The notes below the pieces were generated by a model that saw only the letters and a program-made list of their open reading frames with translations, did no database searches and had not been told where the DNA came from. A stretch of 22,534 nucleotides of DNA from a virus, in the IMG/VR virus record IMGVR_UViG_3300031825_000074, positions 1 to 22,534 of that record; one strand, given 5' to 3'. Shown in pieces: positions 2,057-21,684 of this stretch. Numbering within the stretch: the stretch's first letter is position 1; the number at the start of each line of letters is the position of its first letter. Made by a program: the position numbers and the translations under genes.

Positions 2057-3449
2057 AGATGAAGTCCGAAAAATCGCGGGCGCTGTGGCGCGGGTCGCCG
2101 CTCATGAACTCGATGGGCGCGGAAGGCATGGACGCGGCGTGCTTGGCCAGCGCCAGCGCCCAGAAGTGGTCGGCGTGGCCGTCCGGTGTGCGTTCGGCCG
2201 TGAAGCGGATGTTGCCGGCGGGCGTGACAACCTTAGTCACCTGGCGCAAATCAGCGCGGACCTTCGGGTCATAGGGGATGCGCAGCGCCCGGTCCTCGAA
2301 GTCGCCGCGCAAGGGATAGGCCAGCGCCTCCTTCACCGGGCCGGTGAAGGTCACGCCCTCGACGCGGCCCTCGCCGAACTTGTCCTGGGCGTCATCGACC
2401 CAGCCGATACCCAGGCCGGTCATGTCCCAGCAGCTGCGGTCGCAGCGCTCGATCCACGGCCAGATGATCTTCTCCTGCTCGCTCTTGCGCATGTTCTGCA
2501 TGCGCTCGACATGCCGCGTGTACAGCACGTCGCCCAGCTGCTCGAGCACCCACAGCACCGTCAGGTCCTTCTTGCGCCCGATGTCGATGCCGGCGAACAG
2601 GCGCCCGCCCTCGAGCCGCTGCCAGTCGGTGCCCGCGGAGTATTCGCAGGCCGTGATCAGCTGGTACTCCAGGAAGGCGACGTCGTCGTCGGCCGGGTTG
2701 CACATGTACTCCTGCTCGAACGACTCGGCGTCGGCGCACCCCGACTTGACGAAGTCGAAATAGGCCGCCTCGTCCATCGCCTGGCGCTCGTCGTCGGCCG
2801 GCAGCATCTGCTGCAGCTTGAAGAGGAACCCCTGGTCCAGCGCATCCTGCAGGGTGACGCGGTGCAGGCTGATCCCCTTGGGGTTGCCGTGCTCGCGCAC
2901 CTCGCGCACCAGCTGGTTGAAGAAGTTGTACGAGCCCCGGTGCGTGCTGACCAGCTCCATCGAGCCGCCCCAGGTGATGCCGGGGTAGGCGATCGCCCAC
3001 AGCTTGCGCGGGTCGGGGTGCAGCGCGAATTCGTCCAGGATGCGCCCGCCGCGCTTGCCGGCCTGCGCGTCCGGGTTGCTGCTCATCGAATGGATGCGCT
3101 TGCCGCTGGCGAACTCGATCACATAGGCGCTGATGCGGTCCTTCGGGTCCAGCACCACCTCGCCCAGGTCCTTGGCGGCCAGGTTCATGATGCCCGCCCA
3201 CATCTTGCAGTCTTCGATGAACAGGCGCGCCTGCAGGTCATCGCGGCTGCTCACCCATTGGTCATGCCTGGCGCCTTGGGCGGCCGTGCGCTCGTCGGCC
3301 GCATAGGCCGTGGCCCAGCTCAGGCCGATCTGGCGCGACTTCTCCATCAGCTTCAGCCGGCTGGTGTCCTTGATCCACTTCGACTGGAACGGCAGGAAGA
3401 TGCCGTCCGGGTTGGCCGGGATGACCTTGGCGTTGCCTTTGCGCTGCAT
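2049..3449 (-). CDS. Terminase large subunit (Mu gp28-like)
   Basis: ATP-driven DNA packaging motor and headful nuclease. In the 466-residue product, EKSRQIGLSW (36-45) is a variant Walker A typical of large terminases, and GGRILDEF (134-141) is Walker B with catalytic Glu140. The C-terminal half has an RNase H-like nuclease pattern: GIDIGRKKD with Asp289, WDMTGLGIG with Asp342, and HADHFWALALAK with Asp427. Both catalytic domains therefore look complete. It starts 9 bp after the small Cys-rich gene and overlaps the portal gene. In Mu-like phages this enzyme packages host-integrated copies by headful packaging. The family call is very secure; residue roles are assigned by analogy. Confidence 0.94.
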   Translation of the reverse strand: MQRKGNAKVIPANPDGIFLPFQSKWIKDTSRLKLMEKSRQIGLSWATAYAADERTAAQGARHDQWVSSRDDLQARLFIEDCKMWAGIMNLAAKDLGEVVLDPKDRISAYVIEFASGKRIHSMSSNPDAQAGKRGGRILDEFALHPDPRKLWAIAYPGITWGGSMELVSTHRGSYNFFNQLVREVREHGNPKGISLHRVTLQDALDQGFLFKLQQMLPADDERQAMDEAAYFDFVKSGCADAESFEQEYMCNPADDDVAFLEYQLITACEYSAGTDWQRLEGGRLFAGIDIGRKKDLTVLWVLEQLGDVLYTRHVERMQNMRKSEQEKIIWPWIERCDRSCWDMTGLGIGWVDDAQDKFGEGRVEGVTFTGPVKEALAYPLRGDFEDRALRIPYDPKVRADLRQVTKVVTPAGNIRFTAERTPDGHADHFWALALAKHAASMPSAPIEFMSGDPRHSARDFSDFIYG

Positions 3450-3458
3450 GTTGGCCCG

Positions 3459-3701
3459 CTACTTGTGATCGCTGCCGCACGTCGGCCCGCCATCGCACTC
3501 ATAGCCCTGCCCGCAACGTGGCGACAACGCCTGGATGCTCGAAATGCAAGGCGCGCAGAGGTGACGCTCAACGTGCCTGGCCGGGCGTTCTTCCCAGGCG
3601 CGGCCGTTCCAGTAAAGGCCGATCGCCTTCTTGCCGTACAGCCCGTCCAGTGACAGCCCCTCGCCGCACATGTCGCATCGATAACTGCGTTGCACCGCCA
3701 T
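3459..3701 (-). CDS. Small cysteine-rich protein, possible zinc ribbon
   Basis: Unrecognised 80-residue protein between small and large terminase genes. Seven Cys lie at 9, 12, 49, 52, 63, 69 and 75. The two CxxC pairs (YRCDMCG and LCAPC), about 37 residues apart, are a plausible four-Cys zinc site. The ATG at 3701 shares its A with the TGA of the small terminase gene (TGATG), so translation is probably coupled. A GTG one codon upstream is an alternative start. The stop is 9 bp before the terminase start, and its place in the packaging operon suggests a packaging-linked or nucleic-acid-binding role. That role is inference from context only. Confidence 0.75.
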   Translation of the reverse strand: MAVQRSYRCDMCGEGLSLDGLYGKKAIGLYWNGRAWEERPARHVERHLCAPCISSIQALSPRCGQGYECDGGPTCGSDHK

Positions 3702-4273
3702 CACACGATCCCCAGCGCCTCGCGGATCGCGCGCTTGGTGTCCTCAGTCACGCCGCCCTTGCTTCCCATCGCGTCCAGCTTGGCGCGCTGCTCTTCGAGC
3801 AGCTTCTTGCGGGTGTTCTCTTCGACCTCGGCCTGGAACTTCTTCAGGTTCACGCTGCTGCGCGTGAGCGTGGCTATGTTCTTGGCGGCTGCACTGAGCA
3901 TGCCGACTCGCTCGCCTGGGTCCAGTTCCGGATCGTCGGCCTCCTGCAGGTTCAGGATGGCCTCGAACAGCTCGGTCTGCACCAGCGCCGTCAGGGCCTC
4001 GCTGCGCGCGTCCTGGCTGTCGCCCGCGTGCGCCTGGATCATGCGGGCGGCCTCAGTGCTGGCCTTGATGGCCGACAGGCGCCGTTCCAGTTTCAGGCCA
4101 TAACGCCCGATCGCGCTGCGGCTTGGCAGCGTGCCCGCGTGGGCCTCGCCTGGATAGCGCTCCTGCAGGTCGGCGATCAGCTCGTCGAGCGTCTGCGCGC
4201 CCGTGGCGAGCATGGCCTCGATGTAGGCCTTGACCTCCAGCGGCAGGCGAGTGATCGAGCTCTTACGGCCCAT
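3701..4273 (-). CDS. Terminase small subunit, DUF3486 (Mu gp27-like)
   Basis: 190-residue product with the DUF3486 look: an N-terminal MGRKSSITRLPLEVKAYIEA, then a predicted HTH-like segment (TLDELIADLQERYPG ... PSRSAIGRYGLKLERRL, about 28-66). A long helical region follows, with NIATLTRSSVNLKKFQAEVE near 132-151. In Mu-like phages this protein is next to the large terminase and acts as the DNA-recognising small subunit. It starts 3 bp after the gp26-like stop. Its TGA overlaps the next ATG. Length, sequence style and position all agree. Confidence 0.9.
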   Translation of the reverse strand: MGRKSSITRLPLEVKAYIEAMLATGAQTLDELIADLQERYPGEAHAGTLPSRSAIGRYGLKLERRLSAIKASTEAARMIQAHAGDSQDARSEALTALVQTELFEAILNLQEADDPELDPGERVGMLSAAAKNIATLTRSSVNLKKFQAEVEENTRKKLLEEQRAKLDAMGSKGGVTEDTKRAIREALGIV

Positions 4274-7133: not shown

Positions 7134-7167
7134 GGCGCTTATTGTGGCACTGCGCTCGCCCACGTGG

Positions 7168-7353
7168 CTACTTCGGCTTCGGCGGCGGCGGCGGCGGCGG
7201 GGAGAAATAGACGGTATTGTCTTTGTTCTTCGCGCTCTCGCTAAAACTGCGATACCCCGAGTCCTTTGCAGGTGCACGCGGCGCCGGCGCCGGCGCCGGC
7301 TTCGGCGGTGGCGGTGGCGGTGGCGGTGGCGGCGGTGCCTTCGGGTTCGTCAT
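7168..7353 (-). CDS. 61-residue protein with polyproline blocks at both ends
   Basis: Unrecognised mini-protein. MTNPKA leads into 11 consecutive Pro, then an Ala-Pro run (KPAPAPAPRAPAK), a polar centre (KDSGYRSFSESAKNKDNTV), then 7 consecutive Pro and KPK. ATG 7353 is preceded by AAGGAG at good spacing, which supports real translation. The long Pro runs would stall ribosomes and need EF-P. The matching DNA is a near-perfect CCG/CCA triplet array, so its length may vary. It lies between a secreted protein and the two-TM protein, probably in one transcript. The only function to suggest is a ligand for a Pro-binding partner. Confidence 0.62.
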   Translation of the reverse strand: MTNPKAPPPPPPPPPPPKPAPAPAPRAPAKDSGYRSFSESAKNKDNTVYFSPPPPPPPKPK

Positions 7354-7393
7354 TTTTGCGTTCTCCTTCTTGAATCTTGGTAGTTGCGCAGGG

Positions 7394-8140: not shown

Positions 8141-8551
8141 CTACCCGCGCCGCTTGGGCGGCGGAGCGTTGGTGCTGCCGATCTGTACCGCTCCATGGCC
8201 CTGGTTGACCTGGCTTAAGCCTCCGGCGCCCACTGCTCCGGCCGCTCCCAGCAGCGCGCCCAGGGCCGCGCGCCGGGCCTCCTTTGACGCGTCGCGGAAG
8301 TAGGCCAGCAGGGTCTGCTCTTCGGGGTTGAGCGTGTTACCGCCTGTCTGGCCGGTGACGACGTAGAGCACGTCGGCGCCTGCGGTTGCGATGGCGGCCA
8401 AGTACTCCGCGTCCGGAAAGCGCTCGCCCGCTTCGTAAAGCATCTGCGTCTTCTTGGTGACACCGGCCACTTCGCCCAGCGCAGGTTGACTCAGGCCTAA
8501 CCGAAGTCGCTCTGAGCGCAGTCTTTCTCCAATGGAAACCGATTGGTTCAT
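8141..8551 (-). CDS. XRE-family phage repressor
   Basis: 136-residue HTH regulator, the likely lysogeny repressor in the BcepMu gp17 position. The XRE domain covers about 5-60, with GLSQPALGEVAGVTKKTQML as the helix-turn-helix. It is followed by YLAAIATAGADVLYVVTGQ, typical of small XRE repressors. The tail (about 113-136) contains QVNQGHGAVQIG and ends PPKRRG; there is no peptidase domain, so it is not a LexA-type self-cleaving repressor. I chose ATG 8551 because the HTH domain begins there. A strong AGGAGG at 8609-8614 instead fits a TTG (8599) or ATG (8596) that adds 15-16 residues. It diverges from the early operon, and two palindromes lie at its 5' end. Confidence 0.85.
   Translation of the reverse strand: MNQSVSIGERLRSERLRLGLSQPALGEVAGVTKKTQMLYEAGERFPDAEYLAAIATAGADVLYVVTGQTGGNTLNPEEQTLLAYFRDASKEARRAALGALLGAAGAVGAGGLSQVNQGHGAVQIGSTNAPPPKRRG
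8537..8548. promoter_or_regulatory. Candidate operator O2 (weak palindrome)
   Basis: AACC-GATT-GGTT is a 4+4+4 inverted repeat with the same AACC-N4-GGTT core as the stronger palindrome at 8565-8582. Centre-to-centre spacing is 31 bp, about three helical turns, which suits cooperative binding by repressor dimers. It lies at the repressor start codon. Confidence 0.5.
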
Positions 8552-8558
8552 AAAGTCG

Positions 8559-8587
8559 TTGACAGGGAACCAAACGGTTCCCATAAT
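8559..8587 (+). promoter_or_regulatory. Early promoter (sigma70) toward transposition genes
   Basis: A perfect -35 TTGACA (8559-8564) and a five-of-six -10 CATAAT (8582-8587) are separated by exactly 17 bp. It faces right, toward the gp16-like, HTH and transposase genes. Its spacer is almost entirely the palindrome at 8565-8582, so repressor bound there would block RNA polymerase. Confidence 0.75.
8565..8582. promoter_or_regulatory. Operator O1, perfect inverted repeat in promoter spacer
   Basis: GGGAACC-AAAC-GGTTCCC is a perfect 7-bp inverted repeat with a 4-bp spacer. It lies exactly between the -35 and -10 boxes of the early promoter, the classic place for a repressor operator. The likely ligand is the divergent XRE protein, or a Ner-like early regulator. 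Confidence 0.7.
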
Positions 8588-8608
8588 CACACCCATCAAG
8601 CCCTAACG

Positions 8609-9194: not shown

Positions 9195-9379
9195 ACAGCG
9201 CAGCTGCCCGCGACGCGCAGGGCTTCGCGCTCAACGCGCCCGTGATTGGCGCACTGCGCGCGCCTCGTCCAGCCGATCCGCCATCTCTTGCAGCACGCAG
9301 CGAGACGCCAGCAGCGCCCCCTGCGCCTGCGGCTGCACCGACGCGCGCCACATCCTCGACAGATGGGGGCCGTCGATGA
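9191..9379 (+). CDS. Doubtful 62-residue ORF overlapping an antisense gene
   Basis: ATG 9191 overlaps the gp16-like TGA (ATGA), which would allow coupling. The product starts MNSAAARDAQGFALNAPVIG and then becomes Pro/Ala-rich low complexity. Most of it lies opposite the minus-strand gene at 9231-9473, which looks more like a real protein. Only the first dozen codons lie outside that overlap. Confidence 0.25.
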   Translation: MNSAAARDAQGFALNAPVIGALRAPRPADPPSLAARSETPAAPPAPAAAPTRATSSTDGGRR

Positions 9380-9473
9380 CGCCCTGCATCTCCAGCGCCG
9401 CAGCCAGGTGCATCACGGCGCGCGCCACGCCGTCGACGCGCCCGGCCAGTTCCTCGAACTCGTTGGGGTCCAT
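9231..9473 (-). CDS. 80-residue helical protein on the opposite strand of the early operon
   Basis: The product begins MDPNEFEELAGRVDGVARAV and has heptad-like hydrophobic spacing (VARAVMHLAAALEMQG), then GPHLSRMWRASV and QEMADRLDEARAVRQS. The composition is balanced, unlike the low-complexity plus-strand frame over the same DNA. AAAGGGAG lies about 8 nt before ATG 9473; an ATG at 9494 is an alternative. It faces against the early operon, so it could be made in the lysogen or act as an antisense brake. Family not recognised. Confidence 0.58.
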   Translation of the reverse strand: MDPNEFEELAGRVDGVARAVMHLAAALEMQGVIDGPHLSRMWRASVQPQAQGALLASRCVLQEMADRLDEARAVRQSRAR

Positions 9474-9578
9474 GACCCGCTCCCTTTGTTGCATGGCGTC
9501 ATTGTTCCGGCGCGCCGCGGGCGGCACCAGCCCCAGCGGCGCTATTTGTTTGGAAGCCTCCCGGCGGGGGCATTTCCA

Positions 9579-10049
9579 ATGACGCGCCGCAACTGGAAAC
9601 GGGTGCGCCCGAATAGCCTGGTCGAGGCCCTGCGCCTGTGCAAGGAGTTCGCGCAGGAGCGGCACAACCTGTCGATCGAGCGCATCGCCGACCGCATGGG
9701 CGTCACGCACGACAGCCTGTACAAGTGGCTGGCCACCGGCCGCCTGCCGGCCATCCTGATCCCGGCCTACGAGCTGGCCTGCGGCTGTCACTTCGCCAGC
9801 GAATGGCTGGCCGTCAGCGCCGGCAAGCTGGTGATCGACATGCCCACCGGCCGCAAGGGCGGCACCGACGATCTGCTGGCCGTCAACAGCAGCTGCGCCG
9901 CCGCGCTGCAGCTGCTCACCGCCTTCTACGCCGACCCGGCCGCGGCCGACACCGACGCCACGCTGGCCACCCTGCGCGGCCACCTCGAGCAGGTGGCCTA
10001 CCACCACCACAACGTGGCGCGCTATGTCGCGCCGGAACTGGAGTTCTGA
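9579..10049 (+). CDS. HTH regulatory protein of the early region
   Basis: 156-residue protein. RVRPNSLVEALRLCKEFA opens a DNA-binding domain whose helix-turn-helix is SIERIADRMGVTHDSLYKWL (32-51). IPAYELACGCHFASEWLAVS and a helical C-terminal half of unknown role follow. I recall this layout (PNS-x-EAL ... LIPAYELACGCHFA) from proteins just upstream of the IclR-like gene in B3/BcepMu-like phages. It probably regulates early transcription. The stop at 10049 is 3 bp before the next gene. The upstream in-frame extension to 9246 is antisense shadow and is excluded. Confidence 0.8.
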   Translation: MTRRNWKRVRPNSLVEALRLCKEFAQERHNLSIERIADRMGVTHDSLYKWLATGRLPAILIPAYELACGCHFASEWLAVSAGKLVIDMPTGRKGGTDDLLAVNSSCAAALQLLTAFYADPAAADTDATLATLRGHLEQVAYHHHNVARYVAPELEF

Positions 10050-10052
10050 GCC

Positions 10053-10715
10053 ATGGCCAGCAAGTACACCAACGCCGCCCAGCAGCGGCTGATCAAGCTG
10101 GTGCTGGCCCTGTTCGGCGACGTGGTCAACGGCTTCGCGCCGACCGCGCTCGCCAAGGCCGTTGGCTGCTCGGCCAGCGCCATGACGCGCGACCTGGACA
10201 ACCGGCGCCAGCTGCGCCTGGTGCGCGCGCTGCCCGAGGACAAGCGCGAAGCCGTCCAGTCCGCGCTGCAGTCGACCAACAAGGCCGAGGTGGCTGCCCT
10301 GGTCGAGGACCTCGCCGCGCAGTTGGCGGAAGCGCAGGAAGCCACCGCCGAAGCACAGGCCGAGGTCGAAGCCAAAGACCAGCTCCTGACCGACAAGAAC
10401 AAGCGCATCGACCAGCTCAAGGCCGCCCAGAAGCGCATCGACAAGCTGCCGCCCGACGAGGCGCTGGCCGAGCTGCAGAAGGAGGCCACCGCCCTCATGA
10501 ACGACGCGGTGGGCGCCATTCGCGGTGGCCTGCGCCAGGCGCTGATCGCCTTGCAGAACCAAGGCGACGAAGACAACAGCGTGTTCATGGCCGGCCTGGT
10601 CGGCCAGCTGCAGGCCGACCTGAAGGCACTGCGCGACGAGTTCAACCTGCCGGACGTATCCAACGCGGCCGACCTGCAGCTGGCGCGCGATGTCAACGAG
10701 TGGGCGGGCAAGTAA
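10053..10715 (+). CDS. IclR-like HTH plus coiled-coil early protein
   Basis: 220-residue protein with an N-terminal winged-helix-like domain: QQRLIKLVLALFGDVVNGFA, then PTALAKAVGCSASAMTRDLD and RLVRALPEDKREAV (about 10-70). A long Ala/Glu/Gln coiled coil follows (about 78-130), then a helical C-terminus. Comparable proteins precede the transposase in BcepMu/B3-like genomes, where they are annotated as IclR-like. The position suggests a role in transposition or its control. ATG 10053 is 3 bp after the previous stop. The 28-bp gap after it leads to the transposase. Confidence 0.8.
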   Translation: MASKYTNAAQQRLIKLVLALFGDVVNGFAPTALAKAVGCSASAMTRDLDNRRQLRLVRALPEDKREAVQSALQSTNKAEVAALVEDLAAQLAEAQEATAEAQAEVEAKDQLLTDKNKRIDQLKAAQKRIDKLPPDEALAELQKEATALMNDAVGAIRGGLRQALIALQNQGDEDNSVFMAGLVGQLQADLKALRDEFNLPDVSNAADLQLARDVNEWAGK

Positions 10716-10743: not shown

Positions 10744-11775
10744 ATGTCACGCAGCCCCGCCATGACACAACGCCTGGTCGAAATCGCCCGTGATGCCTTC
10801 GCCGCCGGCCACGGCAACAAGGAAGCCGTCTACGCGGCCGCCTGCGCCGAGCTGGGCATCAGCCGGGCCACGCTGATGCGCGCGCTCTGCGAGGTTTCCG
10901 TGCGCGCGGCGCGCCGCCAGCGCAGCGATGCCGGCGACGTGGCGCTCGCTCGCCCAGAGGCCGTGCTGATCTCCGCCCTGGTCATGGAGACGATGCGCAA
11001 GAACGGCAAGCGCCTGTACTCCATCGGCCAGGCCGTGGAGATCCTGCGGTCCAACGGCGAGATCCGCGCCGAGCGCATCGACGCGGCAACCGGCGAGTGC
11101 CTGCCGCTGTCCGAGGGCGCGATCGCCCGCGCCCTGCGCACCTACAGCCTGCACCCGGACCAGCTGCTCAAGCCGGCCCCGGCGCGCGAGCTGCGCAGCC
11201 TGCACCCCAACCACGTGTGGCAGATCGACGCCTCGCTGTGCGTGCTGTACTACCTCAACACCACCAACCCGGCCGAGATGGGCCTGCAGGTGATGGACGC
11301 CAGGCGGTTCTACAAGAACAAGCCGGCCAACTTGAAGCGCATCGAGAACGACCGCGTCTGGAGCTACGAGGTCACCGACCACAACAGCGACGCCATCTTC
11401 GCCACCTACGTGCTGGGCGCCGAGAGCGGCACCAACCTGGCCGAGAGCTTCATCGCCGCCATCCAGCAGCGCGGTGCCGATCCGTTCTACGGCGTGCCGC
11501 AGATCCTGATGATGGACATGGGCAGCGCCAACACCAGCGGGCTGTTCAGCAACGCCATCCTGGCCTACGTGCCCAAGGTCGGCGCTGGCGGCACCAGCGA
11601 CATCAGCCTGGCCGAGCCCGGCTTCGGCTTCACCAACGTGCTGGAAGGGCACCCGTTCGCCGAGGCGCCGTACTACGAGAACGGCACCAAGAGCTGGATC
11701 TACGGCGCGACCTACGAGCGCCGGCCCAACGTGGCCTACAACACCGCCGGCTTCCTGTTCACCAACCCGAAGTAA
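10744..11775 (+). CDS. In-frame chimera: truncated BcepMu/B3-type transposase fused to major capsid C-terminus
   Basis: Residues 1 to about 270 are a Mu-type transposase of the BcepMu/B3 class. An N-terminal HTH region includes AVYAAACAELGISRATLMRAL. The DDE core has HPNHVWQIDASLCVLYYL (Asp162) and ILMMDMGSANTSG (Asp258). Just after the second Asp the transposase match stops. The third catalytic residue (Glu in a GQVEKAN-type motif) and the C-terminal domains are missing. Instead, from about residue 271, AILAYVPKVGAGG then GHPFAEAPYYENGTKSWIYG and YERRPNVAYNTAGFLFTNPK read like a phage capsid C-terminus. The genes that follow are those expected after a capsid gene. Transposase activity should be lost. 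Start 10744 is the first good ATG after the upstream stop; 10762 is an alternative. Confidence 0.8.
   Translation: MSRSPAMTQRLVEIARDAFAAGHGNKEAVYAAACAELGISRATLMRALCEVSVRAARRQRSDAGDVALARPEAVLISALVMETMRKNGKRLYSIGQAVEILRSNGEIRAERIDAATGECLPLSEGAIARALRTYSLHPDQLLKPAPARELRSLHPNHVWQIDASLCVLYYLNTTNPAEMGLQVMDARRFYKNKPANLKRIENDRVWSYEVTDHNSDAIFATYVLGAESGTNLAESFIAAIQQRGADPFYGVPQILMMDMGSANTSGLFSNAILAYVPKVGAGGTSDISLAEPGFGFTNVLEGHPFAEAPYYENGTKSWIYGATYERRPNVAYNTAGFLFTNPK
11557..11775 (+). pseudogene. Major capsid protein, C-terminal fragment only
   Basis: This 3' part of the chimera encodes about 72 residues resembling the C-terminus of a Mu/B3-like major capsid subunit, with strand-rich YYENGTKSWIYGATYERRPN and NTAGFLFTNP at the end. 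The capsid N-terminus is nowhere in the window. It should lie left of position 1, on the minus strand after the F-like and protease genes, if the packaging half continues normally. The identity rests on recalled sequence style and on the gene order that follows. Confidence 0.62.
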
Positions 11776-11805
11776 CACCCTGAAGCGGCGGGCCGGCAAC
11801 GGCCT

Positions 11806-11846
11806 GAAACCACCCCCGCAGGCCTGAGCGCCTGCGGGGAGGTTTC
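11806..11846 (+). terminator. Long hairpin after the capsid fragment
   Basis: An inner perfect 10-bp stem (CCCCGCAGGC 11814-11823 with GCCTGCGGGG 11830-11839, 6-nt loop) continues outward past a small internal loop into GAAACC/GGTTTC (11806-11811 with 11841-11846). That makes a 16-bp stem in all. There is no U-tract, so it may be a partial terminator or an mRNA 3'-end stabiliser that keeps capsid message high relative to downstream genes. Confidence 0.5.
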
Positions 11847-11900
11847 GGAAGAGCCTGGTGCAGGCCTTTCCTAAACCTCATCCTTTGAAGGAAATTCGAC

Positions 11901-12227
11901 ATGGCAAAACTGATCGCGATGGTGGCCACGGCGGTGCTGATCGACGGCGTGCGAACCGTCATCAAGCCCGGCGAAGAGCTGCCGGATCTGCCCAAGCACG
12001 ACCAGGGCGAGCTGCTGGCCTCCGGCGCAGCCAAGGACCAGGCCGCAGCCGACAAGCAGGCCGCGGCCGAAGAGAAGTTCGAGCGGGCCGCGCAAGCCGC
12101 CTTCGAGCGCGAGCGCAACCAGGTGCGCCAGGCGCAACAGTCCACCGCCACGGCCGACGGCGATGCCGCGGCGGGCGCCGCCAAGGGCAACACCCCCGGC
12201 AAGGGCAACACCGCCAAGCGCGCGTAA
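11901..12227 (+). CDS. Capsid-adjacent protein (Mu gp35 position)
   Basis: 108-residue protein. A short beta-like N-terminus (MAKLIAMVATAVLIDGVRTV, then IKPGEELPDLPKHD) is followed by a long Ala/Gln/Glu/Lys helical tail ending GKGNTAKRA. The start has a GAAGGA site about 9 nt upstream. It lies just after the capsid gene, where Mu-like phages carry gp35, a small virion-associated protein. I recognise the position rather than the sequence. It could be a capsid-binding or head-completion factor. Confidence 0.68.
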   Translation: MAKLIAMVATAVLIDGVRTVIKPGEELPDLPKHDQGELLASGAAKDQAAADKQAAAEEKFERAAQAAFERERNQVRQAQQSTATADGDAAAGAAKGNTPGKGNTAKRA

Positions 12228-12264
12228 GCGCACCCCCAGCCCGTAACTCCAGGAGCAATCTCTC

Positions 12265-12645
12265 ATGGCATCTCAGAACAACGCCGGCCGCCAGTTCGAC
12301 AAGCGGCACGCGGTCACCCTCATTGCCGCCGCCGCGCTGGCGGCCAACCGCTTCATCGGCTACGACGGCAACTACGCCACCGCAGCCGGCGGCGTCAAGG
12401 ACATGCAGGGCGTGACCGAGAACGCTGCCGACGCGGGCGAGGCTGTCAGCTGCGTCACGGGCTACAGCTACCTGGTCGAGGCCGACGCGGCGGGCCTGGC
12501 CTTCGGCGACTACGTCAAGCCCAGCCTGGACGGCTTGGGCAAGGGCGCGGTGGGCACGCTGGCCGATCACTGCGGCCGCGCCCTGGGCGCGGGCGCAGCC
12601 GGCCAACTGGTCGAGGTGCAGCTGGTCAAGCACGCCCACGCCTGA
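12265..12645 (+). CDS. DUF2190-like capsid decoration protein
   Basis: 126-residue protein resembling the DUF2190 capsid-cement group. FDKRHAVTLIAAAALAANRF, then IGYDGNYATAAGGVKDMQGV and EAVSCVTGYSYLVEADAAG give a Gly/Ala-rich beta-barrel-like pattern. The end (GRALGAGAAGQLVEVQLVKH) is the usual closing strand. Such proteins bind the outside of the head and stabilise it. AGGAGC lies about 10 nt before ATG 12265. It follows the gp35-position gene and precedes gp36-like DUF1320. Family assignment is from memory of the sequence style. Confidence 0.72.
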   Translation: MASQNNAGRQFDKRHAVTLIAAAALAANRFIGYDGNYATAAGGVKDMQGVTENAADAGEAVSCVTGYSYLVEADAAGLAFGDYVKPSLDGLGKGAVGTLADHCGRALGAGAAGQLVEVQLVKHAHA

Positions 12646-12666
12646 CCCCGCTGACCGGCCCGCGCC

Positions 12667-13164
12667 ATGAACTACGCCATCGTCCAGGACATGATCGACC
12701 GCTTCGGCGAGCTGGAGATGATCCAGCTCACTGCGGGCGCCGACGGCGTGGCGGTGCAGGCCGTCACGGCCGAGCGCGCGCTGGCCGATGCGCAGGCGTT
12801 CGCCGACGGCTTCGTGGGCCGCGTGTACCGCCTGCCGCTGGCCGGCTGCGCCAAGCCGGCGCCGACGTCCGAGGCGCCTGACGCGGTGCAGTACGTGGCG
12901 CCGCCGCAGCTGGCCCGCGCGGTGTGCGACGTGGCGCGCTACTACCTGTACGACGACCTGGCGCCCGAGCATGAGGTGTACCTGCGCTACAAGGCGGCCG
13001 AGCGCGAGCTGCAGGCCATCGCCGACGGCAAGGCCGTACTGGCCTGCCCCTGGGGCGGTGCGCCCGGCACGCTGGTGGCCGGCGACGCGCCGGGCGATGC
13101 CGAGGTGTTCTACAGCTTCAGTCCGCGCCGCATCACGGACGACAGCACGGCGGGCTACCGGTGA
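12667..13164 (+). CDS. DUF1320 head-tail connector (Mu gp36-like)
   Basis: 165-residue protein of the Mu gp36/DUF1320 family, a connector between portal and tail. The signature is clear: MNYAIVQDMIDRFGELEMIQ at the start, VTAERALADAQAFADGFVGR in the middle, RVYRLPLAG, then a helical block with QLARAVCDVARYYLYDD and RYKAAERELQAIADGKA. The stop overlaps the next GTG start (GTGA). Length is near the upper end for the family, owing to a short C-terminal extension (VFYSFSPRRITDDSTAGYR). Confidence 0.9.
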   Translation: MNYAIVQDMIDRFGELEMIQLTAGADGVAVQAVTAERALADAQAFADGFVGRVYRLPLAGCAKPAPTSEAPDAVQYVAPPQLARAVCDVARYYLYDDLAPEHEVYLRYKAAERELQAIADGKAVLACPWGGAPGTLVAGDAPGDAEVFYSFSPRRITDDSTAGYR

Positions 13165-13619
13165 GCGAGGTCCACGCCAACAACTTCCTTGCGCCCGAGC
13201 CGCACATCGTCGCGCGGCTCAAGGGCGCCCTGGCCGACCTGCAGCCCGCGGTGCACGTGCTGACGGCGGCCCAGCTGGCCGGCGTGAAGGAGGCGGCGCA
13301 ACTGACGCCGGCAGTGCACGTGGTGTGGAACGGGTTCCGGGTGACCGATACGCGCAGCGATGGCGCTATCGCCAAGCTGGATCACACCTGGCTCGTCGTC
13401 GCGGCCGTGCGCAATGTGGCGGGCACGCGCAACGGCGCCGCCGCCCGGCGCGATGCCGGCGAGCTGGCGGCGCGCGCGGGTGCGGCGTTGATGGGCTTTC
13501 GCCCGCCCAACGTGGCCGGGCCGATGCGCCTGGCGCCAGCGCCGCCCGCCGGCTACAGCGGCGGCTACCTGTATTTGCCGCTGGCCTTTCTGGTCGAGTC
13601 GGTTTTCAGGTCCGCCTGA
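13161..13619 (+). CDS. Mu gp37-like tail completion/terminator protein
   Basis: 152-residue protein starting at a GTG that overlaps the DUF1320 stop. The fold pattern fits Mu gp37-like proteins: HIVARLKGALADLQPAVHVL, then VHVVWNGFRVTDTR, a strand HTWLVVAAVRNVAG, a helix RRDAGELAARAGAALMGFRP, and terminal strands YLYLPLAFLVESVF. In siphoviruses the equivalent protein caps the tail tube and joins it to the head. Its neighbours (DUF1320 before, tail tube after) support this. Confidence 0.8.
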   Translation: MSEVHANNFLAPEPHIVARLKGALADLQPAVHVLTAAQLAGVKEAAQLTPAVHVVWNGFRVTDTRSDGAIAKLDHTWLVVAAVRNVAGTRNGAAARRDAGELAARAGAALMGFRPPNVAGPMRLAPAPPAGYSGGYLYLPLAFLVESVFRSA

Positions 13620-13648
13620 CGTTTCCCCTTTTTCAACGGAGCACATCA

Positions 13649-14392
13649 ATGGCCCTCATCAAGCAAATCTACAAGCCGCAATGGACCGTCGGGCAGGTAT
13701 ACGCCCGCCCCTGGGGCGTGGCCGCCGCGCCGCGCACGCCCGTGGGCAACGTGCTCCTGCTGGAGCTGTCGCACGAGGAAGAAGTCAAGAAGCAGGCGGA
13801 CATGACGCGCCTGGGCGGCGGCACCTACGCGCAGGTGCGGCGCATCAGCGGTGTCGCCGTGAAGATGGATCTGGCCGACTGGAACCCGGTGAACTTCGCC
13901 CGTTCGACATTCGGCACTTCGGCCGTGCTGGCGGCCGGCGCCGTGGTCGACGAGCCGCACAAGGCGCACCTGGGCGGGCTGATCCGCCTGGCGGGCCTGC
14001 AGCCCAGCCTGGTGACCATCAAGATCGGCGTCGCCGCCGTGGACGCCAGCGCGTACGAAGTGCGGCCCGAGGGCATCTTCATCCCCGAGGGCTCGGTGGG
14101 CATCGCCGAAGACGATGACCTGCTGATCAGCTACACGCACCCCGAGATGGTCAGCGTGGAGGCGCTGACCAGCGCCGCGCCGGAGCTGGAGCTGAGCTTC
14201 GGCGGCCTGAACGAGGCGGACAGCGGCAAGCCGGTGGTGGTGGACATCTGGCGTGTGTCGTCGGGCATCGCCAAGACGCTGGCGCTGGTGCAAAGCGACT
14301 TCGGCAAGTTGTCGATCGAGGGCGAGGTGCTGAAAGACCCGACGAAGGTCGGCGTTGGCATCAGCCCGTACTACCGCACGCAGATGGTTTAA
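13649..14392 (+). CDS. Major tail tube protein
   Basis: 247-residue protein, likely the tube subunit of a non-contractile tail. It starts MALIKQIYKPQWTVGQVYAR with ACGGAGC about 8 nt upstream of ATG 13649. The C-terminal part (ELELSFGGLNEADSGKP, then VVVDIWRVSSGIAKTLALVQ and FGKLSIEGEVLKDPTK) has the strand order of tail tube domains. No sheath gene precedes it, so a Siphoviridae-like tail is inferred. The in-frame region upstream of 13649 is out of register with real genes and is excluded. Confidence 0.78.
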   Translation: MALIKQIYKPQWTVGQVYARPWGVAAAPRTPVGNVLLLELSHEEEVKKQADMTRLGGGTYAQVRRISGVAVKMDLADWNPVNFARSTFGTSAVLAAGAVVDEPHKAHLGGLIRLAGLQPSLVTIKIGVAAVDASAYEVRPEGIFIPEGSVGIAEDDDLLISYTHPEMVSVEALTSAAPELELSFGGLNEADSGKPVVVDIWRVSSGIAKTLALVQSDFGKLSIEGEVLKDPTKVGVGISPYYRTQMV

Positions 14393-14571
14393 GGGCCGTA
14401 GCGGCCGGCTGGCCTGGCAGGGGCGCACCAGCGCACGAACCCCCAGGCCAGCACCGCCGCCGGCCCCAGCACGCCCAGCGCAAGCAGCCAGGCGCTATGC
14501 CAGCCCAACCCGAAGCTGGCGCCGATGACCAGCAGCCAAAACGCCGCCGACAGGTAGTTCATCTCGCACAT
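14389..14571 (-). CDS. Small two-TM membrane protein on the opposite strand inside the tail operon
   Basis: 60 residues (MCEMNYLSAAFWLLVIGASF then GLGWHSAWLLALGVLGPAAV and LAWGFVRWCAPA) with two predicted TM helices, rich in Trp. It fills the 183-bp gap between tail tube and tape measure, where a tail assembly chaperone would normally be read on the plus strand. Its stop overlaps the tail tube stop, and its start abuts the tape measure start. No ribosome site is visible for 14571; 14562 and 14577 are alternative ATGs. The coherent hydrophobic pattern argues for a real gene, but a chance reading of GC-rich DNA is possible. Confidence 0.45.
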   Translation of the reverse strand: MCEMNYLSAAFWLLVIGASFGLGWHSAWLLALGVLGPAAVLAWGFVRWCAPARPAGRYGP

Positions 14572-14575
14572 TGTC

Positions 14576-17500
14576 ATGGCTGAAAAGATCGTCGAATACA
14601 AAGTCACCGTCAAGACCGACGGCTCCGCGTCGGCGGTGGATGCCCTGCATCAGAAGCTGCAGAACGTGGTGGGCGAACAGGGCTCGGTTGCCTCGGCGGC
14701 CGAGCAGAGTTCCGCGCGCCAGGTCGCCTCGCACCGCAAGGTCGGCGACGGCGTGCAGTCCGTCAGCGCGCAGCTGGCGAGCCTGAAGACCCAGATGCTG
14801 GGCCTGGTGGGCATCAACATCGGCGCGCAAGGCATCAAGGACCTGGTCGCGCTGGGCGATGCCTACAAGAACCTCGAGGCCCGCGTCAAGTTGACAACGG
14901 GCGAAGGCAAGGCGTTCGACGCGGCGTTCGAGGGCGTGTTCGACGTGGCCACGCGCACCAACAGCGCGGTGGCCGAAACCGGCCTGCTGTTCACGAAGCT
15001 CAATGACGCTGGCAAGGCGCTGGGCCGGTCGCAGCAGGATGCGCTGCACCTGACCGAGACCATCAACCAGAGCATTCAGCTCAGCGGGGCTAGTGCCGAG
15101 GCCTCCAAGGCCGCCATCGTCCAGCTGGTGCAGGGCCTGCAGTCGGGCGTGCTGCGCGGCGACGAGTTCAACTCCGTCATGGAGCAATCGCCGCGGCTGG
15201 CGAAAGCGCTGGCCGACGGCTTGGGCGTGACGATCGGCGAGCTGCGTAAGCTGGCCGAAGCCGGCGACCTGACCAGCACCAAGGTGATCAGCGCGCTGGA
15301 GAAACAAAGCGACGCGATCGCGACCGAGTTCAGCCAGCTGCCGCTCACGGTTGGCCGGGCCATGACCAACCTTTCGACCGAGTTCACCCGCTTCGTGGGC
15401 GAGACGGACGCGGCCGGCGGCTACACCACCAAGCTGGCCGGCGCGGTCGACCTGCTGGCCGGCAACCTGGGCACCGTGGCCACGGTGATGATCCACACCG
15501 GCCAGGCGCTGGGCGCCATGAAGCTGCTGTCGATGGCGCAGGACTGGCTGGCGGCCGGCGCTGCCATCAAGGCCACGGTGCCCGCCACCGAGCAGGCCAC
15601 GGCGAGCACCACCCGGCACACGGCCGCGGTGGTGGCCAATGACGCGGCGTTCAAGAACCTGCAATGGGACGTGGCCAGGCACACGGCCGCCCTGCGGGAG
15701 AACACGGCGGCGCAAGGCACCAACGCCGCGGCCACCAGCGGCGCGGGCCGGGCCGCCGCAACGGCCGAAACGCAGGTCACGGCGTTCGGCTCGGCGCTGA
15801 AGTTCCTCAAGGGCTTCGCGGTTCTGGACATCGCCCTGAACTTCAAGTCCTACGGCACGGCGATCGGCGAGGCCGCGGCCAAGCTGATGGGCTACAAGGA
15901 CCGCACGGAAGAACTGGCGCGCGCGGACAAGCTGGCCGCGGAAATCGCGCAGGACAACATCAAGGCACGGCGCGACCAGGCCGCGGCACTCAAGGAGGCC
16001 ACGGACCGCTCATTCGAGCTGGGCAAGGCCGGCAACGACCTGGTGGGCAAGTTCGACGAGATGCGCGTCAAGGGCGACAGCGCCGCCGAGGCGATCGGCA
16101 AGATCGGCAAGGACTTCGACCTGGCCACGGTGCCCGGCATCAAGACGGCCGCGGCGGTGCTGGACAAGCTGCAGGCCGACGGCAAGATCGCCGCGGGCGA
16201 GTTTCAGAAGGCGTGGGCCGACGCGCTCAAGGGCCAGGACCTGGCGGTGTTCGAAACGCAGGCCCGCGCGGCGTTCTCGGGCACGGCGCGCGAAGCCGAG
16301 CGCGTTGCGCAGCTGCTGGACGCCTCGGTGCGCGAAGCCGTGCGGCGCACCGGCATGGACATGGACCTGATCAGCGGCGGCATGGGCCGGGCCGCGCGCA
16401 GCGCCATCAACGACACCGAGGCCATCATCAAGGGCCTGGACCGGCTCAAGGCCATGGGCGTGGACACCGGGCAGGCCCTGGCGGCCAGCCTCACCAAAGG
16501 CATCGACACAGCGGACAGCCAGCGGGCGCTGGACGTCGTGAAGACGCAGATCGAGGCGATGCGCAAGGCGCTGGGCGACAAGGTGGCCGACGGGCTGCTC
16601 GACCAGGCCAAGCAGAAGGCCCTGGAGCTGGGTGACGCGCTGGACAAGGCGAAGCCTGGCGTCAGCAGCCTGCGCGAGGCCATGAAAGAGCTGGGTCTGC
16701 GCTCGCGGGAAGACCTGGATGCCACGGCCAAGAAGGCGCGCGAGGCATACGACCAGATCATCAAGGCAGGCCAGCAAGAGGGTGAGTCTTTCGTGGGCTG
16801 GCAGGCCCGCAAGCAGCAGGCGGCAACCGTGATGCTGCAGCGGATGATCGAGGCCAACAGCGGTGTGGCCAACGAGGCGATCCGCACGCGGGCGTCTATG
16901 GAAGGCCTGGAGATTCAGGTCGACGGCACTGGACGTGCGATCGTGCGGGCGATGGGCAGTGGCGCGGACGCCGCGAAGGCCCTGGGCAGCGCCGTGGGGC
17001 TGACCACCGAGCAGATCCGCGCGCAGGAGGATGCGCTCGACCGCGTCGCAATGAAGTACAAGCTGACGGCCGACTACACCGAGCGGCAGATCGCCTTGCT
17101 CGAACGCGAGGCCGCGCTGATGGAGCGCATGGACACGATCGAGCGCAAGCGCCAGGGCATCGACAAGAACGGCTTCTCCACCGACAAGAGCGGCAACACG
17201 GTGGTGGCCGGCGGCGACCTCACGACCTTGACCGGCATCGCGGCCTTCCTGAAGTCCGCGGGCGTGGCCGACGACAAGGCCGCCCGCGACATCGCCCGCG
17301 AGTTCGCCGACGCTAAAGGCGACATCCCGTACTTCAGCAACCCCGGCCAGATGAAGTACGGCGGGGCGGGCTCGACGATGTCGCAGGCGCTCCTGAAAGC
17401 GGCCGAGCGCTACACCTTCGGCTCGGGCGCGGCGGTTGGCAGAGTGGGCGCCACGCCGCCCCCGGCCACGATCCCCGAGCAAACGCGCACCGTCAACATC

Positions 17501-17611
17501 AACCTCAATGGGGCCTCACTCGGCACGGTGCGCACCGACGATGCCGGCGACGCCACGCTACAGCGCCTGATGGACGAACTGGCCCGCTCCAAAGCCGCGG
17601 CCCAAGGGTAA
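14576..17611 (+). CDS. Tail tape measure protein
   Basis: 1011-residue tape measure. The N-terminal tape_meas_nterm-like region (about 80-275) shows ALGDAYKNLEARVKLTTGEG, VLRGDEFNSVMEQSPRLAKA, LGVTIGELRKLAEAGDLTST and LPLTVGRAMTNLSTEFTRFV. It is followed by a hydrophobic segment (about 285-335) and long Ala/Lys/Glu helices. At roughly 0.15 nm per residue, a known rule of thumb, the tail would be near 150 nm. It occupies the lumen of the tail, sets its length and is ejected with DNA. No ribosome site is obvious before ATG 14576, and no plus-strand chaperone precedes it. Confidence 0.93.
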   Translation: MAEKIVEYKVTVKTDGSASAVDALHQKLQNVVGEQGSVASAAEQSSARQVASHRKVGDGVQSVSAQLASLKTQMLGLVGINIGAQGIKDLVALGDAYKNLEARVKLTTGEGKAFDAAFEGVFDVATRTNSAVAETGLLFTKLNDAGKALGRSQQDALHLTETINQSIQLSGASAEASKAAIVQLVQGLQSGVLRGDEFNSVMEQSPRLAKALADGLGVTIGELRKLAEAGDLTSTKVISALEKQSDAIATEFSQLPLTVGRAMTNLSTEFTRFVGETDAAGGYTTKLAGAVDLLAGNLGTVATVMIHTGQALGAMKLLSMAQDWLAAGAAIKATVPATEQATASTTRHTAAVVANDAAFKNLQWDVARHTAALRENTAAQGTNAAATSGAGRAAATAETQVTAFGSALKFLKGFAVLDIALNFKSYGTAIGEAAAKLMGYKDRTEELARADKLAAEIAQDNIKARRDQAAALKEATDRSFELGKAGNDLVGKFDEMRVKGDSAAEAIGKIGKDFDLATVPGIKTAAAVLDKLQADGKIAAGEFQKAWADALKGQDLAVFETQARAAFSGTAREAERVAQLLDASVREAVRRTGMDMDLISGGMGRAARSAINDTEAIIKGLDRLKAMGVDTGQALAASLTKGIDTADSQRALDVVKTQIEAMRKALGDKVADGLLDQAKQKALELGDALDKAKPGVSSLREAMKELGLRSREDLDATAKKAREAYDQIIKAGQQEGESFVGWQARKQQAATVMLQRMIEANSGVANEAIRTRASMEGLEIQVDGTGRAIVRAMGSGADAAKALGSAVGLTTEQIRAQEDALDRVAMKYKLTADYTERQIALLEREAALMERMDTIERKRQGIDKNGFSTDKSGNTVVAGGDLTTLTGIAAFLKSAGVADDKAARDIAREFADAKGDIPYFSNPGQMKYGGAGSTMSQALLKAAERYTFGSGAAVGRVGATPPPATIPEQTRTVNINLNGASLGTVRTDDAGDATLQRLMDELARSKAAAQG

Positions 17612-17614
17612 GCA

Positions 17615-18010
17615 ATGATCACACTCGATTTGAGCGGAGTCACCGTGCAGCTGGGCGATCGCCTGGCCTGGGTTGACGAGTTCGATTGGCGCCCGGTGGA
17701 GCAATCCATTGAGTACAGCACCACGGGCGCGATGCACGTCGACGTGGGCGTCAAGCAGGCCGGCCGGCCGATCACGTTGCAAGGCAGCGAAACCGAGGCC
17801 TGGATCACACGCGAGGTGAGCACCACGCTGGCCGCCTGGGAAGCCCTGCCTGGCGCCGTGTTCACCCTGACGCTGCGGGGCGTGGCACGCCAGGTCATCT
17901 TCGACCATGAGCGGGGCGGCTTCGTCGCCCAGCCGGTCTGGCGCCTGCTCGATGGCGAAGAGACCCCCGACCAGCTTTTTGTGCCGACATTTCGATTCCT
18001 GGAGGCGTAA
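17615..18010 (+). CDS. Tail-tip protein, unknown family
   Basis: 131-residue protein directly after the tape measure, a position used by distal tail or tip proteins. It is beta-rich: MITLDLSGVTVQLGDRLAWV, then SIEYSTTGAMHVDVGVKQAG, RPITLQGSETEAWI and LTLRGVARQVIFDHERGGFV. Its TAA overlaps the next ATG (TAATG), and GGAGG lies just before that. AAGGGTAA before ATG 17615 may serve as ribosome site. I infer a Dit-like or baseplate role from position only. Confidence 0.7.
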   Translation: MITLDLSGVTVQLGDRLAWVDEFDWRPVEQSIEYSTTGAMHVDVGVKQAGRPITLQGSETEAWITREVSTTLAAWEALPGAVFTLTLRGVARQVIFDHERGGFVAQPVWRLLDGEETPDQLFVPTFRFLEA

Positions 18011-20118
18011 TGCCAATCACCGCAGCCGATATCAAACTGCTCGCCTCCGAGCGCATGACCGACACCAGCGACGGCGGCGGCCGGCGCACCAGCAACGTGA
18101 TCGTCGACGGGGTGGCTGGCAACATCTTTCCGCGGGTGTCGCGCCTGGATGTCACCTACGGCAAGGTCAATCTGCGCAAAGTGTTCGCGGCGGTCCAGAC
18201 GCCTACCGTGGGCACCTATGCGGGCGCGCATGCGGTGATCATGGACGCGCCCGACAACGACAAGATCCACGTCAACATGTTCTCGACGGGCAGCGGCTTC
18301 GACACGCGCACCGCGGCGCGCGACCGGATCGAGTCGTATGTGATCGCGGGCCCCGAGAGCCGGATGATCGTGTACGGGCGGCAGTTGGTCGGGCAGCGGG
18401 CGCTCATGGCGTACCAGCGGGAGGAAGAGCCGCTGCCCGAGGTTGGCGAGGTGTTTTGCCTCTCGAAAGAGACGGCCGGGGTGGTGGATTACCAGCAGTA
18501 CGTGCGCGTCGAGGACGTGGATCACGAGGTGCGCAGCTTCGCCGACGTCAACGGCGAGTTCAAGCGGCGCGTGGTCACGCTGACTCTCAGCTCGCCGCTT
18601 CGCTACGAGTTCCCCGGCCAGGACGCGCCGCTGCGCTTCGCGAACGAGGCGCACCCGTCGCTGATCCGGCGCACCACCGCGGCGGACGCGAGCCGCTATT
18701 TCGGCATTCAGCCGGTGGCCGAGGCGGCACTGGCCGACGCGCTCACGATCAAGGTCGCCTCCGTCTACTCGCCGATCGTTCCGACGACGCAGCGCGAGTC
18801 GCCTGTGAGCAACGCGCAGATCGCGGGGGCCACGCATGTTGAAGCGGCAGGCACCGGCCCCGTGGGTCATGCAAGATATGGCGAAGCGTTCCCGCCGGGC
18901 GTGAATACGCGCAAGACGCAGACGATCAATCTGGGCGGCGGGGTCAAGCCAGGCTCGCTTCGTGTGCGAATGTTTGCGCTCGACAGTAAGGTGTTCGTTG
19001 GCCCAGAGGTCACCGATGACGGCGATGGCAACATCCACGCGGATACGAGCGATCTCTGGGGCAGGGTTTACGGCGGCACCGTGGACTATGAATCGGGCGT
19101 CGCCACGGTAGACGCCTACTACGCGGGTCTGCCGCCAGGGGGGGCGTTCCAAGAGGGCAAAGTGTCCATCGACCGCATCCATGCTGTCGCGGTGTCGCAG
19201 CCCGCTCACACGCTAGATCTGCCCATCACGCTCGCTACGCGCGGCACAGTGTTCGTGCGGACGCTGTCACCCATCCCGGCGCCGGGGACCCTGAACCTCG
19301 ATTTCCGAGCGCTCGGCAAGTGGTACAGGCTGCGCGACGACGGCCAGGGGGCCGTGCGCGGCGACGATCCGGCCTATGGCGTGGGCACGATCGACTACGT
19401 CACCGGCGCCCTCGTCTCGACCATCGGCGCGCTGCCGGACGTCGGATCGAGCGTGCTGCTGTCGTGGGGCTCGAAGGTGCATTACGCGATTCGCGCGGGC
19501 GCGACATCGGACGCCGGCACGCGCGTGAAGCAGCGCATTCAGTTGACCGCGCTGCCGGTCAAACCTGGCACGGCAGCGGTGGAATACAAGGTCGCTGGCG
19601 TGTCCGTCGTGGCGCTGGCCGATGCGAACGGCGTCATCACGGGCGGCAATCTGGCGGGCGCCGTGAACCACGCGACCGGTGAAGCGGACGTCGAGTACAT
19701 GTCGAAGCTGCCAGACATGGAGACGCTGGTCACGGTGACCTATGACCAGGAGGTTCCCACCACGGCGGCGCCCACCTCGCTGGCGGGCGACATCACCGTG
19801 ACGGACCCGACCGACATCGCGATCCCGGTCGACACGTCCGAGATCGCGCCCAAGGGCTTGCGCCTGCGCGCTCCCATGCAGATCAGCGCCGGCCACGTCG
19901 TGCAGGTCGATCTCGCCGACAACGGGCTGGGGAGCGTAGTGACGCTGGATCAGGCGTTCGAGGCACCGCGCGGCAGCGCATGGATCGTCGGCGGCCAGGT
20001 TGCCGGTACCGTGAACTACGCGACCGGAAAGGTGTCGCTCGACCCGGCCGGCATCAGTTACGACTACTACGCGTGGGACTTCAGCACCAGCCGGTGGTTT
20101 GTTGCGAGCGCCGGCTAA
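18010..20118 (+). CDS. Large tail-tip/baseplate protein with repeated Gly-Thr-Ile-Asp-Tyr motifs
   Basis: 702-residue tail protein typical of B3/D3112-like siphophages. The N-terminal part (1-210) is beta-rich, with SNVIVDGVAGNIFPRVSRLD. The rest contains four copies of a motif G-T-[IV]-[DN]-Y-x-[TS]-G: GGTVDYESG (355-363), GTIDYVTG (459-466), GAVNHATG (550-557) and GTVNYATG (666-673). Each is followed by strands such as LVTVTYDQE or YYAW. These look like repeated small domains. It is translationally coupled to the previous gene. Function by analogy: part of the tail hub or tip. Confidence 0.72.
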   Translation: MPITAADIKLLASERMTDTSDGGGRRTSNVIVDGVAGNIFPRVSRLDVTYGKVNLRKVFAAVQTPTVGTYAGAHAVIMDAPDNDKIHVNMFSTGSGFDTRTAARDRIESYVIAGPESRMIVYGRQLVGQRALMAYQREEEPLPEVGEVFCLSKETAGVVDYQQYVRVEDVDHEVRSFADVNGEFKRRVVTLTLSSPLRYEFPGQDAPLRFANEAHPSLIRRTTAADASRYFGIQPVAEAALADALTIKVASVYSPIVPTTQRESPVSNAQIAGATHVEAAGTGPVGHARYGEAFPPGVNTRKTQTINLGGGVKPGSLRVRMFALDSKVFVGPEVTDDGDGNIHADTSDLWGRVYGGTVDYESGVATVDAYYAGLPPGGAFQEGKVSIDRIHAVAVSQPAHTLDLPITLATRGTVFVRTLSPIPAPGTLNLDFRALGKWYRLRDDGQGAVRGDDPAYGVGTIDYVTGALVSTIGALPDVGSSVLLSWGSKVHYAIRAGATSDAGTRVKQRIQLTALPVKPGTAAVEYKVAGVSVVALADANGVITGGNLAGAVNHATGEADVEYMSKLPDMETLVTVTYDQEVPTTAAPTSLAGDITVTDPTDIAIPVDTSEIAPKGLRLRAPMQISAGHVVQVDLADNGLGSVVTLDQAFEAPRGSAWIVGGQVAGTVNYATGKVSLDPAGISYDYYAWDFSTSRWFVASAG

Positions 20119-20133
20119 AACGAAAGCAAAGCA

Positions 20134-21684
20134 ATGCCGAAACTCACTCCGCTCACGGGCACCTACACCTACACCGCGCGCACGACCGCCGCGAGCACGG
20201 CAGTGCCCCAAACATTTGCCGCGGACCCGCTGGGCAACGCGCCGTTGAAGCTGGACCTGACCCAGACCATCGTCAGCGACGTCGTGCCCGGCTCGGTCGC
20301 CTTCACTGCCACCGGCAAGCAGTTCATCGAGCGCAATGGCGTGCTCTATACGGACCTCAATCCTGTGGATGCGTCGGGCACGCCATCGGGCACCATCGAT
20401 TACGGCACCGGCAAGGCGTCGCTCACCCGCTGGGGCAACAACACCGCCCTCGGCGTGTCGGTGCAGGCGTGCCTGACGCGGTTCGGCGACTGGCCTGCGC
20501 GCGAGATGTCGTTCCGCACGGCGGGCTCACCGATTCGCAACTCGTCGGGCTACGTGCAGGTGACCGCCGACGACGGCGAGGTGCTGACGGCCACGTCGGA
20601 CGCCGATGGCGTGCTGAGCGGCCCGCATGCGCGCGGCCAGGTCAATCAGCAGATGGGCACCGCGCACATCGAGTGGGGCGAGATGGTGCCGGCGGCCGGC
20701 AACGAGACGCAAGAGTGGTACGACCCTGCCAAGGTGGTCGGCGCGAACGTCTGGAAGCCGCGCAACGTGATCCCCAGCACCATCCGCTACAACTGCGTGG
20801 TGCTGAGCAACCTACCGCTCAACGCCGACATCCTCGGCCTGGAGCCGGTACGGCTGCCCAGCGACGGACGCGTGCCGATCTACCGGCCCGCCGACGTGGT
20901 GGTGATCCACAACACCAAGAGCCTTGAACTGCCGAATCCGGCCGCGGCTGGCGCCACGTATGCGGCCGGGCGTGCGGACCTGTCGGAAGCATGGTTGCTC
21001 GACGCATCGGGGGCGCGGGTCGCCGCCAGCAAGTACGTCGCCGACCTGGCCGCCGGAACCGTGACGATGGCGGCCGACCTTGACCTGACCGGCGTGCCCC
21101 AGCCGCTGGTGCTGCGGCATCGGATCGAAGAGCTCAACTTGCTCTCGGACGTGCAGATCAACGGCGAGCTCGGGCTCACCGGGGCGCTCTCGCGCGACTT
21201 CGACGCGGACACCTTCGTATCGTCGGCGATGCTGTTCGGCGACATGTTCGCGCGGGTGTCCAACGTATTCGACCAGGTGACATGGACCGGTGTGTGGTCC
21301 GACGCGCGCATCGGAGCCAACGCGACGTCCGAATACGATGCCGTGAACTACCCGATCACCGTGCTCAATGACGGGGCCGTGCCCGAGCGCTGGCGCGTCA
21401 ATTTCACCAGCGCTAACGCTTTCCAGGTGATCGGCGAAAACCTCGGCGTGATCGCTACCGGCACCACGGCCGCCGACCTCATCCCGGTGAACGCGCTGAC
21501 CGGCAAAGCCTACTTCACCCTCAGCGCGGCCGGCTGGGGCGCCGGTTGGGCCGCCGGCAACCAACTGCGCTTCAACACCGTCGGCGCGACGGCGCCGATC
21601 TGGATCGCACGCACAGTGCTGCCGGGCGCCACGCTCGATGGCGACAGCCTAGACCTGCAACTGCGCGGCGACGTGGACGCCTGA
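20134..21684 (+). CDS. Tail protein, baseplate/tip component
   Basis: 516-residue protein, beta-rich throughout. It opens TPLTGTYTYTARTTAASTAV and contains a fifth copy of the repeat motif (SGTIDYGTGKASL, about 85-97), linking it to the preceding gene. The middle has WYDPAKVVGANVWKPRNVIP and LGLEPVRLPSDGRVPIYRPA. The C-terminal third has the polar beta pattern of tail proteins (WRVNFTSANAFQVIGENLGV). It lies between the large tip protein and the tail fibre gene. The exact family is not recognised; a structural tail role is nearly certain from context. Confidence 0.72.
   Translation: MPKLTPLTGTYTYTARTTAASTAVPQTFAADPLGNAPLKLDLTQTIVSDVVPGSVAFTATGKQFIERNGVLYTDLNPVDASGTPSGTIDYGTGKASLTRWGNNTALGVSVQACLTRFGDWPAREMSFRTAGSPIRNSSGYVQVTADDGEVLTATSDADGVLSGPHARGQVNQQMGTAHIEWGEMVPAAGNETQEWYDPAKVVGANVWKPRNVIPSTIRYNCVVLSNLPLNADILGLEPVRLPSDGRVPIYRPADVVVIHNTKSLELPNPAAAGATYAAGRADLSEAWLLDASGARVAASKYVADLAAGTVTMAADLDLTGVPQPLVLRHRIEELNLLSDVQINGELGLTGALSRDFDADTFVSSAMLFGDMFARVSNVFDQVTWTGVWSDARIGANATSEYDAVNYPITVLNDGAVPERWRVNFTSANAFQVIGENLGVIATGTTAADLIPVNALTGKAYFTLSAAGWGAGWAAGNQLRFNTVGATAPIWIARTVLPGATLDGDSLDLQLRGDVDA

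Follow-up and report, generated by a model that had tools for sequence, protein, structure and literature searches.

The window, that is, the whole stretch of 22,534 bases analysed here, is a complete IMG/VR virus record related to the Mu-like phage B3, and the ends of the contig fall within phage sequence. Mu-type terminase, portal and F are present, and two arms diverge from an HTH repressor (8141–8599, minus strand, assigned by profile matches), as in a B3-like transposable phage. The left arm, on the minus strand, carries a Mu F-like head protein truncated by the contig end (1–528; Phage_Mu_F) and intact genes for the portal, TerL and TerS (515–4273; Portal_Mu, Terminase_6, Phage_Mu_Gp27); TerL has 92% protein identity to that of locus L049, which lies in the viral contig G001. 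At about 7166–7390, also on the minus strand, a short predicted protein contains two long stretches of proline. The plus strand carries an intact CII-like activator (9246–10049; phrog_101, 89% to L049), two chimeric ORFs described below and, at 11901–21684, the head-tail adaptor, tail tube, tape measure and tail genes, which are open and in the order seen in relatives. The ORFs at 18010–20118 and 20134–21684 jointly cover phrog_6128 (1–654 and 707–1199 of 1200), two genes for one profile.

The ORF at 10744–11775 (plus strand) is open throughout and encodes 343 residues. In PHROGs, residues 1–268 match a transposase (phrog_310, 3e-53, profile positions 126–358 of 696) and residues 270–342 match a major head protein (phrog_1005, 6e-11, 245–313 of 315); Pfam gave no match for the ORF. 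As the TnpA of an intact relative covers phrog_310 from 130 to 683 and an intact capsid protein covers phrog_1005 from 2 to 313, the ORF consists of the N-terminal part of TnpA, a B3-type DDE transposase (residues 1–269, 10744–11550), and the C-terminal ~74 residues of the major capsid protein (11551–11775), joined at codon 270 (AAC, 11551–11553). The in-frame fusion reported in the preliminary description is thus confirmed. B3-type TnpA proteins are 56–76% identical to the first part (B3 itself 56% over residues 1–270), and the match to them ends at residue 270 in nearly all of the phage-genome matches listed. An intact hybrid in phages, in which the transposase match reaches residue 299, was considered and rejected; the annotated case checked (KP12) is a full transposase. 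An in-frame ATG is also present at 10690, yet the relatives begin at the equivalent of 10744. D162 and D258, which the same description had recognised, are both present and are invariant in 36 of 36 aligned relatives. The catalytic Glu, which is E294 in the protein from L049, follows with D-X35-E spacing in all 36 and lies beyond the join, so it is missing from the window and the catalytic triad is incomplete; the description was also correct that the C-terminal domain is absent. The capsid part, less than a quarter of the whole protein, is up to 89–91% identical to intact capsids and matches PDB 3bjq, a phage-related protein (2.7e-11).

A second fusion, missed in the preliminary description, lies about 0.5 kb upstream. 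The ORF at 10053–10715 (plus strand) joins codons 1–50 of a Ner/IclR-like regulator (10053–10202; 59–76% identity to the separate ner ORFs of relatives) in frame to the C-terminal ~170 residues of a DUF3102 protein (10200–10715; 50–59% identity from codon 50 onward). The ner match ends at codon 50–53, and wherever both parts could be placed in relatives they are two separate ORFs. Some 0.58 kb is absent at this join, the two points being 575 bases apart in L049. The remaining genes of the window were screened for further joins and none was found. A further deletion, between the genes for the tail tube (ending at 14392) and the tape measure protein (starting at 14576), was considered and rejected, as no gene occupies this interval in the relatives checked; in this region only the N-terminus of the tape measure protein varies among them.

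Neither architecture was found elsewhere. The TnpA–capsid fusion is absent from 80 genome loci, 399 genomes of the order to which G004 belongs, viral contigs, phages and plasmids, and in the genomes, the 399 genomes, the phages and the plasmids the matches never cross the join as one hybrid. Full-length homologues, which would have made this a normal protein, were therefore not encountered in the collections searched. Exact and degenerate junction patterns had no match in viral contigs. The Ner–DUF3102 hybrid was not found in phages or viral contigs and is seen only in this contig, the one contig from which the virus record is known.

Relatives retrieved from viral contigs and bacterial genomes establish the normal arrangement. 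In 45 distinct intact loci tnpA and the capsid gene are separate genes on the same strand, the matching parts starting 6.9–10.4 kb apart as against 0.8 kb in the window, and each matching part adjoins the rest of its own gene, apart from a few short ORFs where the retrieved sequences end. Aligned with G001, the window runs to 11548 (G001 15948) and resumes at 11547 (24878), with 8.93 kb absent. The isolate prophage G002 is likewise collinear with the window to either side of the join; about 7.8 kb of it is absent from the window, a stretch that holds the TnpA C-terminus, TnpB, DUF3164, GemA, the protease and the greater part of the capsid gene. The TnpB ATPase, present beside TnpA in both G001 and G002, is absent from the window. 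The preliminary description had treated an early and a late gene sharing a frame as the anomaly. That observation stands in qualified form: the two genes normally lie on the same strand 7–10 kb apart, a simple deletion is therefore enough to join them, and theirs is one of two such joins.

The terminase and portal genes lie on the opposite arm in 18 distinct intact loci, as they do in the window. In these 18 the head genes are split, with the TerS–TerL–portal arm opposite to that of the protease, capsid and tail and with the repressor and early operon between them; the corresponding regions of the window are 1–4273 (minus strand) and 11551–21684 (plus strand), and in G002 F and G are seen on the TerS–TerL–portal arm. 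Intact relatives share this two-arm division of the head genes, which does not belong to the damage. One group (TG1) of Leptospira transposable prophages is reported to have a separated TerS–TerL–Portal block (PMC8705779). A third gene order occurs in Rhodocyclus tenuis (locus L199), where the capsid gene is upstream of tnpA on the opposite strand and a weak TerL match lies downstream on the tnpA strand.

Both joins could be placed to within a few bases. At the downstream one, relatives read TTC NNN AAC CTG on the tnpA side (LFxN|L) and GGC AAC AAC GCC on the capsid side (WGNN|A); the window reads TTC AGC AAC GCC, such that the CAAC at 11550–11553 can come from either parent. At the upstream one, ner relatives read GAC AAC CTG, DUF3102 relatives CTG AAC CGG and the window GAC AAC CGG, and the AACC at 10200–10203 can belong to both. 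These putative 4-bp microhomologies (both plus strand) are deduced from aligned relatives at 60–90% identity, which stand in for the true parent sequences. Repeats this short are consistent with slipped replication or end joining, and also with template switching during amplification; at ~4 bp they are probably too short for k-mer collapse in assembly.

We suggest that the ORF at 10744–11775 was probably left behind by an internal deletion in a B3-like transposable phage or prophage, that a second deletion of ~0.58 kb accompanies it and that the element is defective. Some 8–9 kb, from tnpA codon 269 to capsid codon ~246, would have been lost, with joining at the 4-bp repeat CAAC in the manner of slipped replication or end joining; the second deletion, at AACC, would have fused ner to the DUF3102 gene. 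What would remain is an element without an active transposase, TnpB, GemA and other early genes, the protease or a whole capsid protein. Both flanks align collinearly with the closest relative, so that one deletion of ~8–9 kb accounts for the tnpA–capsid join; another join of this kind within the window supports the reading. Comparison with relatives shows that the genes were lost by deletion, and defective prophages that have lost genes are common. When 44 right arms are ranked by how closely their tetranucleotide signature matches that of the window's left arm, the window's own comes second (correlation 0.68, mean 0.38), and for two intact relatives the same test places their own right arms first and third; this pairing is compatible with one source genome. 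The closest relatives of the arms vary gene by gene, and the arms could yet be two similar related phages joined. This variation counts against a deletion, as do three further observations: the remaining genes are all open, with no further sign of decay; the window is a single contig; and both joins are in frame, which has a chance of about 1 in 9, so that selection is not required to explain it.

The single contig also counts in favour of the principal alternative, a laboratory or assembly chimera in which one or both junctions stem from template switching (in whole-genome amplification or during library preparation) or from a join made by the assembler, and the real virus is intact. The short shared bases at both joins resemble those of amplification chimeras, in which the overlap peaks at 6 nt (PMC4595205), and neither join occurs in any natural relative. 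However, in amplification chimeras the inverted form arises more easily and most joins fall within 5 kb (PMC4595205), whereas both joins in the window are direct and one spans ~9 kb. The shared stretches are also far too short for k-mer collapse, and the explanation requires either that two joins formed independently within 22.5 kb or that there was one amplified molecule. We regard such a chimera as a genuine possibility, though the less probable one, and infer that the deletion is of cellular, not laboratory, origin and marks a defective prophage or deletion variant.

The remaining alternatives are improbable. It is very unlikely that the element is a B3-like deletion derivative parasitic on an intact helper (like mini-Mu), keeping the terminase, portal, lysis and tail genes and retaining the in-frame hybrids for interference or regulation. 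Slightly less credible still are functional hybrids under selection, with the DNA-binding part of TnpA on a capsid fragment and Ner–DUF3102 as a hybrid regulator: both ORFs are in frame and open over their full length, but neither architecture has a homologue in any collection searched, the transposase part ends before the catalytic Glu and so little of the capsid remains. Least likely of all is an inversion within a B3-type genome bringing genes of opposite arms together, our first model from the B3 map, where tnpA and the capsid gene are on opposite strands and a single inversion would yield the window order; we rejected it since the closest relatives, isolate genomes included, are naturally oriented as the window on both sides of the join and none is needed.

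The most likely conclusion is that the fusion reflects nothing more unusual than a deletion in a dead phage, or else a sequencing chimera, and is not a new kind of protein, the chimeric ORFs being most likely by-products without function. Of the preliminary interpretation, a rearrangement or sequence chimera is upheld; the idea that a hybrid protein is made or important is not, the searches having turned up no homologue of this architecture. Its suggestion that the element could not transpose on its own agrees with the lack of both the catalytic Glu and TnpB. From the known biology of Mu and B3, the element would be unable to replicate by transposition or to form heads unless a helper supplied these functions. 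Essential genes are lost relative to intact relatives, as in a defective prophage or deletion variant. The case serves chiefly as a warning. Annotation would call the two ORFs a hybrid transposase–capsid and a hybrid regulator; comparison identifies them as deletion joins and, if the joins are real, the window holds an inactivated transposable phage.

By descent the element is, as far as its sequence indicates, a B3-like transposable phage that falls short on the catalytic triad and TnpB and is thus a defective derivative. It is like G001 (IMGVR_UViG_3300031825_000056; loci L049 and L091) in layout and is collinear with it on both sides of the join, but in G001 tnpA and the capsid gene are intact with 8.9 kb between the join points, and ner and DUF3102 are separate. 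The 37.1-kb isolate prophage G002 (IMGVR_UViG_2908794071_000002) shares the split layout and has a TnpA 68% identical; unlike the window it is complete, with TnpB, DUF3164, GemA and protease lying between the tnpA and capsid genes. Pseudomonas phage B3 (NC_006548) resembles the window in its TnpA and has homologues of the repressor, DUF3102, TerS and TerL, whereas its genes are intact and its head and tail genes are all on one arm, opposite to tnpA. Stenotrophomonas phage phiSHP3 (MT872956) has a related capsid (34%) and a B3-type gene set, but it is intact and follows the B3 gene order, with head and tail genes on one arm.
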